64,000 bases of DNA from Lawsonibacter sp. (GCA_022791995.1 JAAWAD010000021.1:62001-126000), one strand, 5' to 3'. Shown: positions 22,846-29,103, counted from the stretch's first letter. Numbers and translations are program-made. The notes: a model not told the origin generated them from the sequence alone.

Positions 22846-25062
22846 CTAAAACCGGCTGTACAGCGCCAGAGCCAGAAGAATTGCCTCCTCCACAGTGGCG
22901 TTTTCCATAGGGGCCACCCGACCGTTCTCTCTCCCGGACATCAGCCCGTTGTTGGTCAACAGAGCCACCGCCTCCAAGGCCCAGTCGGCCACACTGCCGC
23001 CGTCCAGATACTGTGGATCCAGCTGGGTGCTGGTGTTGTCCAGAGAGAACGTCCCCTGTGTCTTGTCCACATATTGGATCACATGACGCAGCATAACGCA
23101 GATCTCCTGCCGGGTAATGCGGTCATCGGGGGCAAAAATGCCCTCCTCACGGCCAGACGCAACCCCGGCAGCCACTACCTTGCACACCGCCTCATCGTCA
23201 GTATCGGAAAAGGTATTCTTTGCCGGAGGAATCGTCTCACCTGTGGTCCGCTCAATCAGATTGGCAGCCAGCTCTGCAAACTGGAGCCGGGTAATGGGCG
23301 CTTGCAGATCGCTCTGCGTACGGGGTGGAATCAGCCCCCGGCTGTAGGCATTCATCAGCTGTCCCTGGGCCCAATCCGAGGCGGAGGCTATCTGGAACTC
23401 ACCAGCTCCCTCCTCCCCCATCACCAGACCAGTGTCCGAGATATACAGAGAATACGTGGGAGTACTCTGGAAAAATTGCCCCGAGGAGACCGTAGCCCAG
23501 AGGGTGTGCCGCCCGGGGAGCAAATCCTGGGCGTCCAAATCGAAGTAGTAGGGAGCGGCAGAAGGGGTATAGACAATGCTGCCATCCAGCCAGTAGGAGA
23601 CCGTGATCGGCGCTGTGCCGGGGAGACTGGCGTAGACCGCCAGACGCAGCTTGGTGCTGCTGTTGCACTCCAAATTGATTTGCTCCAGCGTATCCCAGCG
23701 TCTTGGAGAGGCGTTCCCGTTGACAAAGTAAGTCCCATTGCCAGAGACCGCAGCCCGGTAGGCCGCATCCAGACCGGCGTCGTCTGTTAGAGCTCCAGGC
23801 TCTCCCTGGGGAATATCCTCATAAAATACCGCTTTTATCTGGGGGCAGATCATATTTATATAGGCGTAAAAGCGAGTCAGCTGCTCGGCGGCAAAGGTGG
23901 ACTGCGCCTCCCCCGGGGCAGCGGCAAAGCTGCATCCGGCAACCACGATGGGCTTGTCGTGGTCCAGAGCAAACTGGAGGATAGGCCAAAGGGGCGCTAC
24001 GGGATTCCTGCTGTACAGTCCTGTACCCTGTCGGGCGTCCTCCTGATACTCGGCATACCCATAAAAATAGGCCGCAGGCTCATTGTCTTGGGACCGGGCG
24101 CTGGGGGCCTGATGGGTAATCGCACCCACCCAGTCTACATAGGGATCTCCAGGATAAAAGGCGGTGAACTCGCCTCCGGCGGCATCTGGTGCAAACAGGG
24201 TTTGTACATTTGGATACCGGTCCGCCTCCCGTGCAATCTTCTGGAATGCCTGAATATACCGGCCGCTGTCACAGCTGGGCCATGCGTTCATTCCTCCGCC
24301 AATGCGCAGCAGAACCGTGCAGTTCAGCGAAGCCATTGCCCGCAGCCCTTCGGAGATATAGCTGTCGGCAGAGGGCTCCAGCACCTTATTCACTCCGTCG
24401 GTCCCCTCTGGTTCAAAGTTCCATGCCAGCTGGATGAGCCCTCCCGGAGCCGCAGCCTGACTGAATCGGGCACTGGAGCTTTTGAATTGGCTCAGCCAGT
24501 ATTCCACGGAGTTCCCGTCCAGAAAGGGAATACTTGCCAGCACGCCGGGATCCCCGCTTTGTCCAGAATGGACACCGGAGCCGATCCAGGTGCCTTGGGT
24601 GAGGCTGGAGGAGCGGGTACTCTCCTCCCCGGCGGCCAGTGCGTAGACCGCCGGGTGGACGGCAGCGGTAAGATGCGCCAGCCTGGCAACAATGGCCTCC
24701 AGCTCATCCTGGCGGTCCTCCCCATTTTCGTGCAGCCAGCGGACAAGCTCCTCCTGCCGCTCCAGCCAGGTGACAGCCTGCTCCAGATCTCCCTCCAGCT
24801 CTGCGCACCAGGAGGCTTGGGCACATACCGTTTCCAGACTGCACACCTCGACGGAACGCTCATACTGGGACAGCATGGCATAGAGCTGCTGGGACAGATC
24901 CAGAAGGCTGCCTGTATCCCCGCTGGACCGGGCGTCCTCCCAGGCGCTGTACACGGTATCGTAGGCAGCCGGGTAAGAAAACGCCCCGGCAGAAAAAGCG
25001 GAGCCCACCGTCAAAACAGCAGTCAAAAGCAGGGCCCCCCCATACCGAACAAGCTTTTTCAT
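22846..25062 (-). CDS. S-layer-homology protein with GH26-like domain
   Basis: Signal peptide MKKLVRYGGALLLTAVLTVGSAFSAGA; GH26-like central region; C-terminal SLH repeats (ITRLQFAELAANLIER, ITRQEICVMLRHVIQYV, ATVEEAILLAL). Confidence 0.7.
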   Translation of the reverse strand: MKKLVRYGGALLLTAVLTVGSAFSAGAFSYPAAYDTVYSAWEDARSSGDTGSLLDLSQQLYAMLSQYERSVEVCSLETVCAQASWCAELEGDLEQAVTWLERQEELVRWLHENGEDRQDELEAIVARLAHLTAAVHPAVYALAAGEESTRSSSLTQGTWIGSGVHSGQSGDPGVLASIPFLDGNSVEYWLSQFKSSSARFSQAAAPGGLIQLAWNFEPEGTDGVNKVLEPSADSYISEGLRAMASLNCTVLLRIGGGMNAWPSCDSGRYIQAFQKIAREADRYPNVQTLFAPDAAGGEFTAFYPGDPYVDWVGAITHQAPSARSQDNEPAAYFYGYAEYQEDARQGTGLYSRNPVAPLWPILQFALDHDKPIVVAGCSFAAAPGEAQSTFAAEQLTRFYAYINMICPQIKAVFYEDIPQGEPGALTDDAGLDAAYRAAVSGNGTYFVNGNASPRRWDTLEQINLECNSSTKLRLAVYASLPGTAPITVSYWLDGSIVYTPSAAPYYFDLDAQDLLPGRHTLWATVSSGQFFQSTPTYSLYISDTGLVMGEEGAGEFQIASASDWAQGQLMNAYSRGLIPPRTQSDLQAPITRLQFAELAANLIERTTGETIPPAKNTFSDTDDEAVCKVVAAGVASGREEGIFAPDDRITRQEICVMLRHVIQYVDKTQGTFSLDNTSTQLDPQYLDGGSVADWALEAVALLTNNGLMSGRENGRVAPMENATVEEAILLALALYSRF

Positions 25063-25273
25063 ATCCGATGCCCTCCTTTTCACAGAGGATGAAACGTAAA
25101 AAATATCTCTGCTCTTTTACAAGTATACCAGCCTCCAGCCTGGGAAGCAAGTATTTTTCTGACATCTGCCGATGAAGTTTTTGGAAAGAAGGCTGGACAG
25201 AAGACGGCTTTTGCATTATGATAGGTGGGTATCCATACGTTCCTGTCCTATCTGTCCTTTGTGGAGGTTTTTC

Positions 25274-26602
25274 ATGCGGCATACATTTTTCGGCGGGGTT
25301 TACCCCGCTGTCCGAAAGGAGAGTACCCGGCGTAAGCCCCTCTCCCGCTTAACCAAGCCCCCGGCTCAGGTGTACATTCCCTTGACCATGAGCGCCGACG
25401 GTCCCTCCCTCCCGGCGGTCCGGCCCGGCGACCGGGTGACGGTGGGGCAGGTCATTACCCGTCCAAAAAGCGGCGGCGGCGGCGCTGCTGCCCACTCCAG
25501 CGTCTCTGGCCGGGTCAGCGCCATTGAGGATTGCCCCCACCCCTGGGGCGCTCCCTCTCCCGCCATTATCATTGACAACGACGGCCAGAATACCCGCTGG
25601 ATGGGCCGGCCCGGGTCCCTGGAGCAGGAGCAGATCACGCTGGAGCTGCTGCTGAACCGGACGCTGGAGGCCGGAATTGTGGGAATGGGAGGGGGCGCCT
25701 ATCCCACAATGGACAAGCTCCGTCAGGCCGCCGGCCGGGTGGACACCCTGATCGTCAACGCCGCTGAGTGTGAGCCCTATGTCACCGCGGATTACCGGCT
25801 TCTGCTGGAGCGCAGCGACCAGATTCTTCGGGGGGCTAGGGCCATCGCCCGGTGCCTGGGGGCCAAGCGGGCCATTCTGGTCACGGAGGGAGACAAAATC
25901 AACGCCGCCGAGCTGGTAGAGCGCCGTCTGCGCCGCCGCTCTGGCGGAGTGGAGCTGTGTACCGTCCGTACCCGATATCCTCTGGGCGCGGAGAAACAGA
26001 TTGTCCAGACTGCCACCCGGCGTGAGGTACCCCCTGGGGGTACCCCGATCCAGGCGGCCTGTCTGGTGCTGAATGTGGCTACCGTTTTCGCCATTCAGGA
26101 GGCCATTTTTAAGGGACAGGCCTTAACACATCGGGCAGTTACGGTTTCTGGCGGGGCAGTCAGCCGGCCTCGGAATCTGTGGGTCCCGATTGGCACTCCC
26201 CTCTCCCTTCTTTTGGAGGAGGCCGGGGGATTGCGGGAAGAGAACCCCCTCATACTCACTGGCGGGCCGATGATGGGGACGGTTCTTCGGGATTTGCAGG
26301 CTCCCGTGGTAAAAAACACCAACAGTCTGCTCTGTCTGTCCCCCTGGGAGCAAAAAAAGGATACCCGGGAGACCGTGTGTATCCGCTGCGGAAAATGTGT
26401 GGAGACCTGCCCCATGCACCTGGCCCCGACATTCATCCGCCGGGCCCTGCGGCGGGGCGAGCTGGACCGCCTGCCCAAATTCCATGTGGAGGACTGTATC
26501 TCCTGTGGCTGCTGCTCCTTTATCTGCCCAGCCAACATCCCGCTGGTGGAGTGGATGGTCAAGGCCCGAAACGTGGTGGAGAAAGGAGGGGATGTGTCAT
26601 GA
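25274..26602 (+). CDS. rnfC: Rnf-type electron transport complex subunit C
   Basis: MRHTFFGGVYPAVRKEST, GMGGGAYPTMDKL, VNAAECEPYVTADYRLL, two 4Fe-4S motifs CIRCGKCVETCP and CISCGCCSFICP. Confidence 0.88.
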   Translation: MRHTFFGGVYPAVRKESTRRKPLSRLTKPPAQVYIPLTMSADGPSLPAVRPGDRVTVGQVITRPKSGGGGAAAHSSVSGRVSAIEDCPHPWGAPSPAIIIDNDGQNTRWMGRPGSLEQEQITLELLLNRTLEAGIVGMGGGAYPTMDKLRQAAGRVDTLIVNAAECEPYVTADYRLLLERSDQILRGARAIARCLGAKRAILVTEGDKINAAELVERRLRRRSGGVELCTVRTRYPLGAEKQIVQTATRREVPPGGTPIQAACLVLNVATVFAIQEAIFKGQALTHRAVTVSGGAVSRPRNLWVPIGTPLSLLLEEAGGLREENPLILTGGPMMGTVLRDLQAPVVKNTNSLLCLSPWEQKKDTRETVCIRCGKCVETCPMHLAPTFIRRALRRGELDRLPKFHVEDCISCGCCSFICPANIPLVEWMVKARNVVEKGGDVS

Positions 26603-28248
26603 GTGAAGGCCGGATCCCTTCGCCCCCTCACCTGGGGCAGAACGCCACTACCCCGGCCCTGATGCGAGAGGTCATAATTGCCCTCCTCCCTGCACTGGGA
26701 ATGGCCGTCTTCTTTTTTGGCCCCCGGGTGCTGGTTCTCACCGGTATCTCGGTGATATCCTGTGTTCTGTTTGAAACCCTGTACCGTCTGTTTACCCGGC
26801 AGCCGATGACCATCGGAGACCTGTCCACCTGTGTCACCGGCCTTCTGCTGTCCATGTGCCTTCCCCCCACCGCCCCCTACTGGGCCCCCGTTTTGGGCTC
26901 GGCCTTCGGTATCATTGTGGTAAAGCAGCTCTACGGCGGCTTAGGCAAAAATTTTATCAACCCCGCTTTGGGCGGCCGGATGCTGCTGGCAACCTTCCCC
27001 ATTCTGATGACAGCCTGGTCCCAGCCTCTGGATCGTCTGCCCTTGCTGGGGGTGGATGCTGTCTCCGCCCCCACCCCTATGGCCTACCTTCACGAGGGTG
27101 TACTGCCCCCCCACTCCTTGGAGCAGCTTTTTCTGGGCTACCAGGGGGGCTGCCTGGGGGAAGTCTCCTCCTTTATGCTTCTGCTGGGAGGCGGCTATCT
27201 GATTCTGCGGCGGGTTATTTCTCCCCGTATCCCGGTCTCCTATTTAGGCACTGTGGCCCTGTTGGCCCTGCTTTTCCCAAAAGGGGACGGAAGTCCGCTG
27301 GACTGGATGCTTGCCCAGCTGCTGGGGGGCGGCCTGCTGTTGGGGGCCTTCTTTATGGCCGCTGACCCGGTCACCTCCCCGGTAACACCCAGAGGACAGA
27401 TTCTTTTCGGAATCTGCTGCGGGGGACTGACCATGCTCCTGCGGTACCACAGCTCTTACCCCGAGGGAGTAGGCTGGGCCCTTCTGGTGATGAACTGCCT
27501 GGTCTGGCTTCTGGATCGGGCGGGGAACCCGCGCAGGTTCGGTGTTCCTCCCTTTGCGGTCCTTCAAAACTGGCTGTTCCGCACAAGGGCCAGCATGGCA
27601 GAAATTAAATTTGTCAAGCCGGAGCTTCACCTGCTCCCCAGCGAAGGGGCTACTGGTGTCATTTGGCGGGACTTGCTCCACGCCTATGGCCGGCCTCTGG
27701 GCAGTCTGCTTGGCGTTATCCTGGTGACAGGGGCGGTCATTACCGGCATTCACCAGTATACCGACCTGGACACTGCCCGGCTGGAGGTACAGGTCCGCCA
27801 AGAGCTGCTGGCCCAGGTCATGCCTCAGGCCGCCACCAGCTCGGAAACTCCCTATCAGGCGAACGGCGCCTTGAGCATCACCGCCGGCTACAGTGAAGAC
27901 AACCTGCTGGTAGGCTATTGCGTCGAGGTGCAAAGCTATGGCTTCGGCGGTGTGATTACCATGGTGGTAGGCGTAGACCTGGACGGCAGCGTCACCGGAG
28001 TCTCTGTTACCGACCATAAGGAGAGTAGCGGCGTGGGTACGCTGGCAATGACCCAAGCCTTCCTCAGCCGCTATGTAGGCTTGTCGGGCACCATCCGCAC
28101 CTCGGGTAGCAATGCGGTTGATGCGGTCAGCGGAGCCACTGCCACCTCCCGCGCCATCACCGCCGGAGTCAACCGGGCACTGGCTATCATGGCAAACCTG
28201 GATATGGATGGAGAGGAGTTTTTCAACGATGAGGAAGGACAGCCCTAA
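26599..28248 (+). CDS. RnfD-RnfG fusion protein
   Basis: RnfD half: IGDLSTCVTGLLLSMCLPPTAPYWAPVLGSAFGIIVVKQLYGGLGKNFINPALGGRMLL and DAVSAPTPMAYL; RnfG half after one TM: GSVTGVSVTDHKESSGVG and VDAVSGATATSRAIT; ATGA overlap with rnfC; the 26179 ORF start is an artefact. Confidence 0.82.
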   Translation: MSEGRIPSPPHLGQNATTPALMREVIIALLPALGMAVFFFGPRVLVLTGISVISCVLFETLYRLFTRQPMTIGDLSTCVTGLLLSMCLPPTAPYWAPVLGSAFGIIVVKQLYGGLGKNFINPALGGRMLLATFPILMTAWSQPLDRLPLLGVDAVSAPTPMAYLHEGVLPPHSLEQLFLGYQGGCLGEVSSFMLLLGGGYLILRRVISPRIPVSYLGTVALLALLFPKGDGSPLDWMLAQLLGGGLLLGAFFMAADPVTSPVTPRGQILFGICCGGLTMLLRYHSSYPEGVGWALLVMNCLVWLLDRAGNPRRFGVPPFAVLQNWLFRTRASMAEIKFVKPELHLLPSEGATGVIWRDLLHAYGRPLGSLLGVILVTGAVITGIHQYTDLDTARLEVQVRQELLAQVMPQAATSSETPYQANGALSITAGYSEDNLLVGYCVEVQSYGFGGVITMVVGVDLDGSVTGVSVTDHKESSGVGTLAMTQAFLSRYVGLSGTIRTSGSNAVDAVSGATATSRAITAGVNRALAIMANLDMDGEEFFNDEEGQP

Positions 28249-28278
28249 TTTTGAAAACCGCGAGAGGGGGTATTGCTT

Positions 28279-28869
28279 ATGACTGCCGTGCTGGAGCTGG
28301 CCGGAGTAGCGATTGCCGCTCTGCTGTCAGAAAATCTGGTTCTCGTCACCTGTATGGGTATTGGCACCCGCCCCCAGTCCTTTCAGGAACCGGTGGACGC
28401 CCTGCGCACCGGCTACTGTCTGACGGTGGTCATGGTACTCAGCGCTCTGATCTCCTGGACGGCCGACCGTCTGATTTTGCTCCACTTTGGCTGGGCGCAC
28501 CTCCGCCTTCTGGTTTTCGCACTGCTGATTCCGGCCCTGGTAGCCGGTCTGCGGAGCTTCATCCAGACCTGCTTGCCCGCCCTCGCCAGACGAATGGACG
28601 GCAACCTGTCTGCCATTTCCACCAACTGTGCCGCCTTGGGCTCCGCTCTGCTCATCGCCCAGCGCAGCTACAGCTTGGGCGCTGCCCTGCTGTTCGCCTT
28701 CTTCGGCGGCTTGGGCTCGGCTGTGGCTCTGGCCAGCTTTGCCAGTCTCCAGCAGGAGGTGGCCCTGTCCCGCATCCCACGCTGCTTTCAGGGTCTGCCC
28801 ATTCAACTGATTACCGCCGGGCTGATGGCCCTGTCCCTGGTGGGCTTTTATGGGCTTCACCTTGATTGA
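28279..28869 (+). CDS. Divergent RnfA-like membrane subunit
   Basis: ENLVLVTCMGIGTRPQ, AISTNCAALGSALL, IQLITAGLMALSLVGFYGL match RnfA signature regions; six TM-like helices. Confidence 0.75.
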   Translation: MTAVLELAGVAIAALLSENLVLVTCMGIGTRPQSFQEPVDALRTGYCLTVVMVLSALISWTADRLILLHFGWAHLRLLVFALLIPALVAGLRSFIQTCLPALARRMDGNLSAISTNCAALGSALLIAQRSYSLGAALLFAFFGGLGSAVALASFASLQQEVALSRIPRCFQGLPIQLITAGLMALSLVGFYGLHLD

Positions 28870-28889
28870 ACCAGCTGCGCTGCAAAAGC

Positions 28890-28930
28890 AAGCAAGTGCC
28901 AGTCCCTTACAGGACCGGCACTTGCTTTTT
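28890..28930. terminator. Bidirectional terminator
   Basis: aagcaagtgcc..ggcacttgctttttt-type hairpin between convergent genes. Confidence 0.8.
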
Positions 28931-28932
28931 CG

Positions 28933-29103
28933 TTATTTCGCCAGCTTGAAAGAGGCACATTCCGTGCCCTCGCACCGGGTGGGGTTGCAGTCACAGCAAC
29001 CCACTTTGATCGCCTCCAGAGAACAGCAATTTTGGGGGGCGTTGTGATAGGCGCAGCTGTCCACACTGCACTTGATATTGGTATTGCAAGCTCTGTAATC
29101 CAT
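28933..29103 (-). CDS. DUF1540-like small Cys-rich protein
   Basis: Translation MDYRACNTNIKCSVDSCAYHNAPQNCCSLEAIKVGCCDCNPTRCEGTECASFKLAK; below the 60-aa cut-off so absent from the ORF track. Confidence 0.8.
   Translation of the reverse strand: MDYRACNTNIKCSVDSCAYHNAPQNCCSLEAIKVGCCDCNPTRCEGTECASFKLAK

Follow-up and report, generated by a model that had tools for sequence, protein, structure and literature searches.

In many anaerobes it is Rnf complexes that couple ferredoxin and NAD to an ion gradient. Canonical Rnf has six subunits, RnfC, RnfD, RnfG, RnfE, RnfA and RnfB, whereas the compact Rnf-like locus described here, which lies in a stretch of 64,000 nucleotides of a Lawsonibacter genome (the window), is without RnfB and RnfE. 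The question that it raises is what an Rnf-type system of this kind can do and, in this regard, whether the locus is a maintained unit, a fragment, or one part of a system that is completed by subunits encoded elsewhere in the genome.

Organisation of the locus

From gene reading and Pfam searches of the 64-kb window, the locus is a unit of three tightly packed genes on the plus strand. The first, an rnfC-like gene (25274..26602, +), encodes PF13375, PF01512, SLBB and 4Fe-4S dicluster domains, and is preceded by a GGAGG-type ribosome-binding site at approximately 25263..25267 (+), seen directly in the sequence. It overlaps by four bases (ATGA) with an rnfD-rnfG fusion (26599..28248, +), in which PF03116 (NQR2_RnfD_RnfE) is joined to PF04205 (FMN_bind). 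A spacing of 30 bases then leads to an rnfA-like gene encoding 196 amino acids (28279..28869, +; PF02508, Rnf-Nqr), the start codon of which is the ATG at 28279 and not the TTG at 28273. The unit is closed by an intrinsic terminator with a T tail (28888..28926, +), which is absent from the list of a simple scan and was read directly from the sequence as a hairpin at 28888-28921, with arms GCAAGTGCCAGTCC and GGACCGGCACTTGC, followed by TTTTT. Neither rnfB nor rnfE adjoins the three genes among the flanking genes in the window.

The neighbours on both sides run in the opposite direction. Upstream is a gene for an SLH-domain protein (22846-25068, -), a homologue of which is kept, at about 50% identity, at only one (L038) of eight related loci; in other words, the neighbour changes while the operon stays. 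Directly after the terminator comes a Cys-rich open reading frame of 56 amino acids (28933-29103, -), which adjoins genes for a membrane protein and FtsZ on the same strand. Chance resemblance to Rnf is excluded by the Pfam E-values and by the presence of the same layout in 13 other genomes, and the initial annotation, which had described a compact three-gene Rnf-like locus that ends in a terminator and lacks rnfB and rnfE alongside, is borne out by Pfam, by the sequence itself and by these 13 genomes.

Conservation in relatives

The 14 compact loci compared here are that of the window, those of eight related genomes and those of five further genomes of the same genus. The eight close relatives, which include Lawsonibacter, Pseudoflavonifractor and Colidextribacter, emerged when 85,462 species genomes were scanned with the A-like protein as query, and all of them have C, fused D-G and A in this order without B or E nearby (one locus, L043, ends inside rnfC at a contig edge). 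The five same-genus genomes have the identical layout, such that C-DG-A is conserved without B and E in the neighbourhoods of homologues across all 14 genomes. When a GTDB family sample of 301 genomes was searched for the D-G fusion, the full-length form without internal stops was found in the window's genus only (6/6 sampled), with scores of 754-1001 bits; the next match, at 460 bits, is interrupted by stops between D and G. With the A-like protein as query against 297 genomes of the order, the best non-self matches are canonical RnfA proteins encoded beside RnfE, and also beside RnfB where the contig reaches that far.

The dN/dS ratio lies between 0.09 and 0.49 across all pairs of compact genes, the three frames are open in 13/13 complete loci (L043 being cut by the contig end) and the spacing is kept. 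Identity among the A-like proteins is 64-80%, as against 83-94% for canonical A from the same genomes, and falls in some pairwise comparisons to 51-55%. On these sequence comparisons, the compact locus is to be regarded as an old unit maintained under purifying selection and not as a fragment. A recent deletion was rejected, given that the layout is fixed in the genus despite A-like identities as low as these.

Redox sites of RnfC and the RnfD-RnfG fusion

The best PDB match of the RnfC-like protein is the RnfC chain 7zc6_C (E 3.5e-99). In the alignment, the eight cluster cysteines of its two 4Fe-4S motifs are kept in all 14 compact loci, as is an extra cysteine, C413, which is likewise invariant. 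The FMN/NADH loop, on the other hand, has drifted, from GGAGFP to GGGAYP in the window, and this drift is strongest in three early-branching members (L087, L088 and L090), while ECEPY and much of the loop are retained in most members, the window included. In the three early-branching loci, a glycine of the loop is replaced by serine or aspartate (GGGAS or GRDAS), and in L088 and L090 the ECEPY motif reads ESEPY or ESDPY. As a result of the drift of this flavin/nucleotide loop, the assignment of NADH as donor is uncertain and that of the cytosolic partner less sure.

The fusion protein comprises, in order, a multi-transmembrane RnfD part, a linker, an RnfG anchor helix and an FMN-binding domain, with PF03116 covering residues 8-315 and PF04205 residues 448-528; its PDB matches are the RnfD and RnfG chains of 7zc6. 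The threonine of RnfD that carries covalent FMN (T159) and the riboflavin-contacting residues Asn121 and Asp256 are kept at all 14 loci, their equivalents in A. woodii RnfD being T156, N123 and D249 (PMC11889175). Of the RnfG flavinylation motif, (S/T)GAT, the GAT with T514 is found in 14/14, the preceding residue being Ser in nine and Ala in five. A Pfam search of all three locus proteins gave no match to PF00175. ApbE, which is needed for flavin attachment, is encoded elsewhere in the genome.

The RnfA-like protein

The product of the third gene matches PF02508 with an E-value of 9e-23, has RnfA proteins as its closest PDB chains, and, in a tree of RnfA and RnfE, falls on the side of RnfA, at the end of a branch of 2.4 changes per site. 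In the canonical complex the membrane [2Fe-2S] cluster is held by two cysteines each from RnfA and RnfE, those of RnfA being C25 and C113. The first of these ligand columns, which is Cys in 36/36 RnfA and 36/36 RnfE sequences, is Gly (Gly29) in all 14 compact loci, and a new cysteine (Cys25) four residues before the lost ligand occurs in 14/14 compact proteins but in 0/72 canonical RnfA and RnfE. The second ligand is retained as the invariant Cys117. The reading that both normal RnfA ligands are kept was rejected, since C25 of the A-like protein falls outside the ligand column.

The surface that would meet RnfB is also altered. Three residues that in a published account face the RnfB cluster, Lys32, Arg154 and Glu158 (PMC11889175), are not conserved in the A-like protein where the equivalences are taken from the alignment, and an arginine column near these residues has become Glu in 12 of the 14. 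The bias of Lys plus Arg towards the odd loops has a mean of +7.7 (range 4-11), as compared with +5.1 for canonical A and -7.4 for E. From these sequence features, the A-like protein probably keeps a single RnfA-type orientation, and probably has neither normal contact with RnfB nor a normal cluster. AlphaFold models built from nine sequences were poor, with mean pLDDT values of 51 and 42.

A complete operon elsewhere and the origin of the two

In the genome of the window (2.18 Mb, in 101 contigs and 80% complete), Rnf-Nqr proteins number exactly three and RnfB domains one. A complete rnfCDGEAB operon is present on contig C44 (L004, 5467-10384), and both the RnfE and the RnfB of the genome are encoded there and nowhere else; compact and canonical proteins are about 31-41% alike over their aligned parts. 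This arrangement is general, in that each of the 14 genomes with a compact locus has a single copy each of canonical A, E and RnfB, all in one separate cluster. One of these genomes, G415, is a single contig of 2.9 Mb with three Rnf-Nqr proteins and one RnfB, which makes a hidden rnfB or rnfE unlikely. The possibility that an assembly gap conceals these genes was rejected, as 14 genomes agree and one is a single contig. The sole copies of rnfB and rnfE lie inside a complete operon, which the initial annotation had left out together with the altered cysteine of the A-like protein.

The relationship between the two operons was examined with a tree of concatenated RnfC and RnfD (48 rows, 767 columns), unrooted except by the sampled order, and with tests of hypotheses that were formed after a first look at a quick tree. 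In this tree the compact loci are nested among six-gene operons from their own family (SH-aLRT 99, ultrafast bootstrap 100), and the complete operon of the genus clusters with operons from a different family in the order, f23 (100/100). An origin of the compact locus by duplication of that complete operon is rejected (AU p 3e-8), as is a clade of the family's operons with the complete one among them (p 2e-4). Since the compact loci are nested among the family's operons and the complete operon falls outside them, it was probably the native operon that was reduced; indeed, the plainest reading of the sequences would be that a native six-gene operon was reduced once, before the genus diversified. 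The deletion from a six-gene operon that had been considered at the outset is thereby retained, as a single reduction of the native operon, but as an old event and not a recent one. The complete operon, by the same comparison, appears to be of foreign type and may have arrived by transfer, and the grouping of L004 with the operons of another family suggests replacement by a foreign operon.

Comparison with related systems

When set beside canonical Rnf (C. tetanomorphum 7ZC6, A. woodii 9ERI and A. vinelandii 8AHX), the compact locus encodes homologues of RnfC, RnfD and RnfG in which the residues of the 4Fe-4S, FMN and riboflavin sites are the same, and its third gene falls in the RnfA branch. 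It differs in the fusion of RnfD to RnfG and in its A-like protein, from which one [2Fe-2S] ligand and the charges facing RnfB have gone. The NQR/RNF-like systems of Meheust et al. (2021) are likewise partial: they pair a membrane subunit of NqrB/RnfD type with an outer flavin domain of NqrC/RnfG type, and these one-arm systems have been proposed to be unidirectional, carrying electrons from NAD(P)H to flavins on the outside (PMC8238504). In them, however, the NAD domain (PF00175) is fused to the NqrB/RnfD part and the RnfD flavinylation threonine is lost (PMC8238504, with a 2024 follow-up, PMC10979944), whereas the compact locus has a separate RnfC, an RnfD-RnfG fusion, the threonine and an RnfA-like gene. 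Na+-NQR, for its part, is thought to derive from a duplicated rnf operon minus rnfB (PMC12174285); it gained NqrF and keeps both A/E-type subunits, whereas the compact locus has no visible replacement for RnfB.

Closer to hand, the same family contains second Rnf-like loci of C, D and G only, without A, E or B: L094 (1137-6651, G085:C12), L101 (G216:C43) and L099 (4220-9516, G270:C16). As at the compact locus, these are second loci without B and E in which the redox sites of C, D and G are intact, but they have no A-like gene, their D and G are unfused, and ApbE, a lipoprotein and a small membrane protein may stand alongside; L094 and L099 carry all three of the latter, the small membrane protein being without a Pfam match. 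Common descent of the compact loci with these C-D-G-only loci is not rejected (AU p 0.30). The genome of L099, G270, has no Rnf-Nqr proteins anywhere, and with such loci in view the C-D-G arm evidently persists alone. A different layout is seen at L097 (2941-7064, G332:C15), an rnfC-D-G-E-A cluster without adjoining rnfB, in a 99% complete genome (G332) that has no RnfB-sized match; some 0.7 kb downstream of this cluster is a gene for the S component of an ECF-type (riboflavin-like) transporter. A literature search, with most subscription journals outside its reach, found no published report of the C-DG-A layout, nor in titles and abstracts any of a D-G fusion or of an Rnf without RnfB.

Proposed function and alternatives

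The electron route of Rnf is described as a U, running from ferredoxin through RnfB, the A/E cluster, RnfG, RnfD and RnfC to NAD, with ion pumping assigned to the A/E dimer (PMC11889175). Of this U, the compact locus keeps the G-D-C arm intact; what belongs to the B-A/E arm is either missing or altered. The reading that we hold with moderate confidence is that the native Rnf, reduced once, has been kept as a one-way C-D-G conduit without pumping, the foreign-type full Rnf doing the normal work. Electrons would pass from a cytosolic carrier, probably NADH, to the flavin and 4Fe-4S clusters of RnfC, from there to the riboflavin and FMN of RnfD, and on to the FMN of RnfG at the outer face, giving a one-way transmembrane flow without RnfB and without the normal A/E [2Fe-2S] gate. 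With neither of these in place, ions would not be pumped in the manner of Rnf. The fusion of D to G would keep the outer flavin beside RnfD, and the A-like protein may be a scaffold that docks the RnfG anchor, or the carrier of an altered metal site.

This one-way conduit is favoured because the G-D-C arm is intact, because published half-systems have been read as unidirectional and because C-D-G-only loci exist. Against it, no gene for an outer-face acceptor was seen at the locus, and no FMN_bind proteins besides the two RnfGs were found in the window's own and sister genomes (G000, G415 and G339). The drift of the RnfC loop, which makes NADH less certain as donor, also speaks against it, as does the conservation of the A-like gene with its invariant new cysteine, for which a mere relic would have no need. 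It is conceivable, if unlikely, that C-DG-A alone moves electrons, and perhaps ions, by way of a new metal or redox site in the A-like protein formed by Cys25 and Cys117, which would be unlike Rnf, Nqr and the known half-systems. Another reading, in which a homodimer of the RnfA-like protein with a rebuilt metal cluster completes a two-way path, draws on the invariance of C25 and C117, which would make four cysteines per dimer. Such a dimer is nevertheless very unlikely, since an inverted A/E pair requires dual topology, whereas the strong RnfA-type Lys plus Arg bias is found in 14/14, and since C25 lies four residues off the normal ligand; the A homodimer proposed in the initial annotation is disfavoured by this same positive-inside bias.

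The presence of RnfE and RnfB in the complete operon of all 14 genomes, taken with the RnfA orientation and the second ligand cysteine of the A-like protein, would permit a hybrid in which C-DG-A joins these two subunits as an alternative ferredoxin:NAD oxidoreductase. Borrowing from a second locus, although possible in principle, is nonetheless disfavoured, and the hybrid is correspondingly improbable: the A-like protein no longer has its first cluster ligand or the charges that face RnfB, the two operons are of different lineages, and the complete operon has its own RnfA. In other words, the lost ligand, the lost charges and the kept orientation together argue against both borrowed RnfB and RnfE and a rebuilt inverted homodimer. 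Slightly better placed, and still rather unlikely, is a half-path with another partner, in which the 4Fe-4S clusters of RnfC are in direct electron exchange with ferredoxin or flavodoxin and NAD(P)H is unused; the drifted RnfC loop, above all in L087, L088 and L090, would fit this, as would the eight retained cluster cysteines with the extra C413, but most members, including that of the window, keep ECEPY and much of the loop. Flow could also be inward, from an extracytoplasmic donor through RnfG, RnfD and RnfC to NAD+, given that the C-D-G chain of canonical Rnf runs in both directions (PMC11889175) and that an acceptor gene is missing from view; a donor enzyme, however, is not seen either, and outer donors near the potential of NADH are uncommon, such that this direction is quite unlikely. 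Finally, the faster evolution of the A-like protein relative to canonical A, together with the drift of RnfC, might be taken as the mark of a slowly decaying relic of the native operon, but open frames, low dN/dS, kept spacing and redox sites retained in 14/14 make this highly improbable, and the degeneration that had been suggested is disfavoured by purifying selection. What stands of the initial annotation is its view of a reduced and rewired Rnf-type module, in which the layout is fixed in the genus, the redox sites of C, D and G are intact and the B/E half is gone.

Implications

The overall picture is of a whole genus that keeps its native Rnf minus the ferredoxin-input and ion-gating parts, beside a full Rnf of apparently foreign origin. 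This constitutes a natural test of which subunits serve electron transfer and which serve pumping, in which the missing cysteine of the A-like protein is the natural counterpart of the cluster mutants called for by the pumping model. It also means that counts of rnf genes would overestimate energy conservation in gut Oscillospiraceae-type bacteria.
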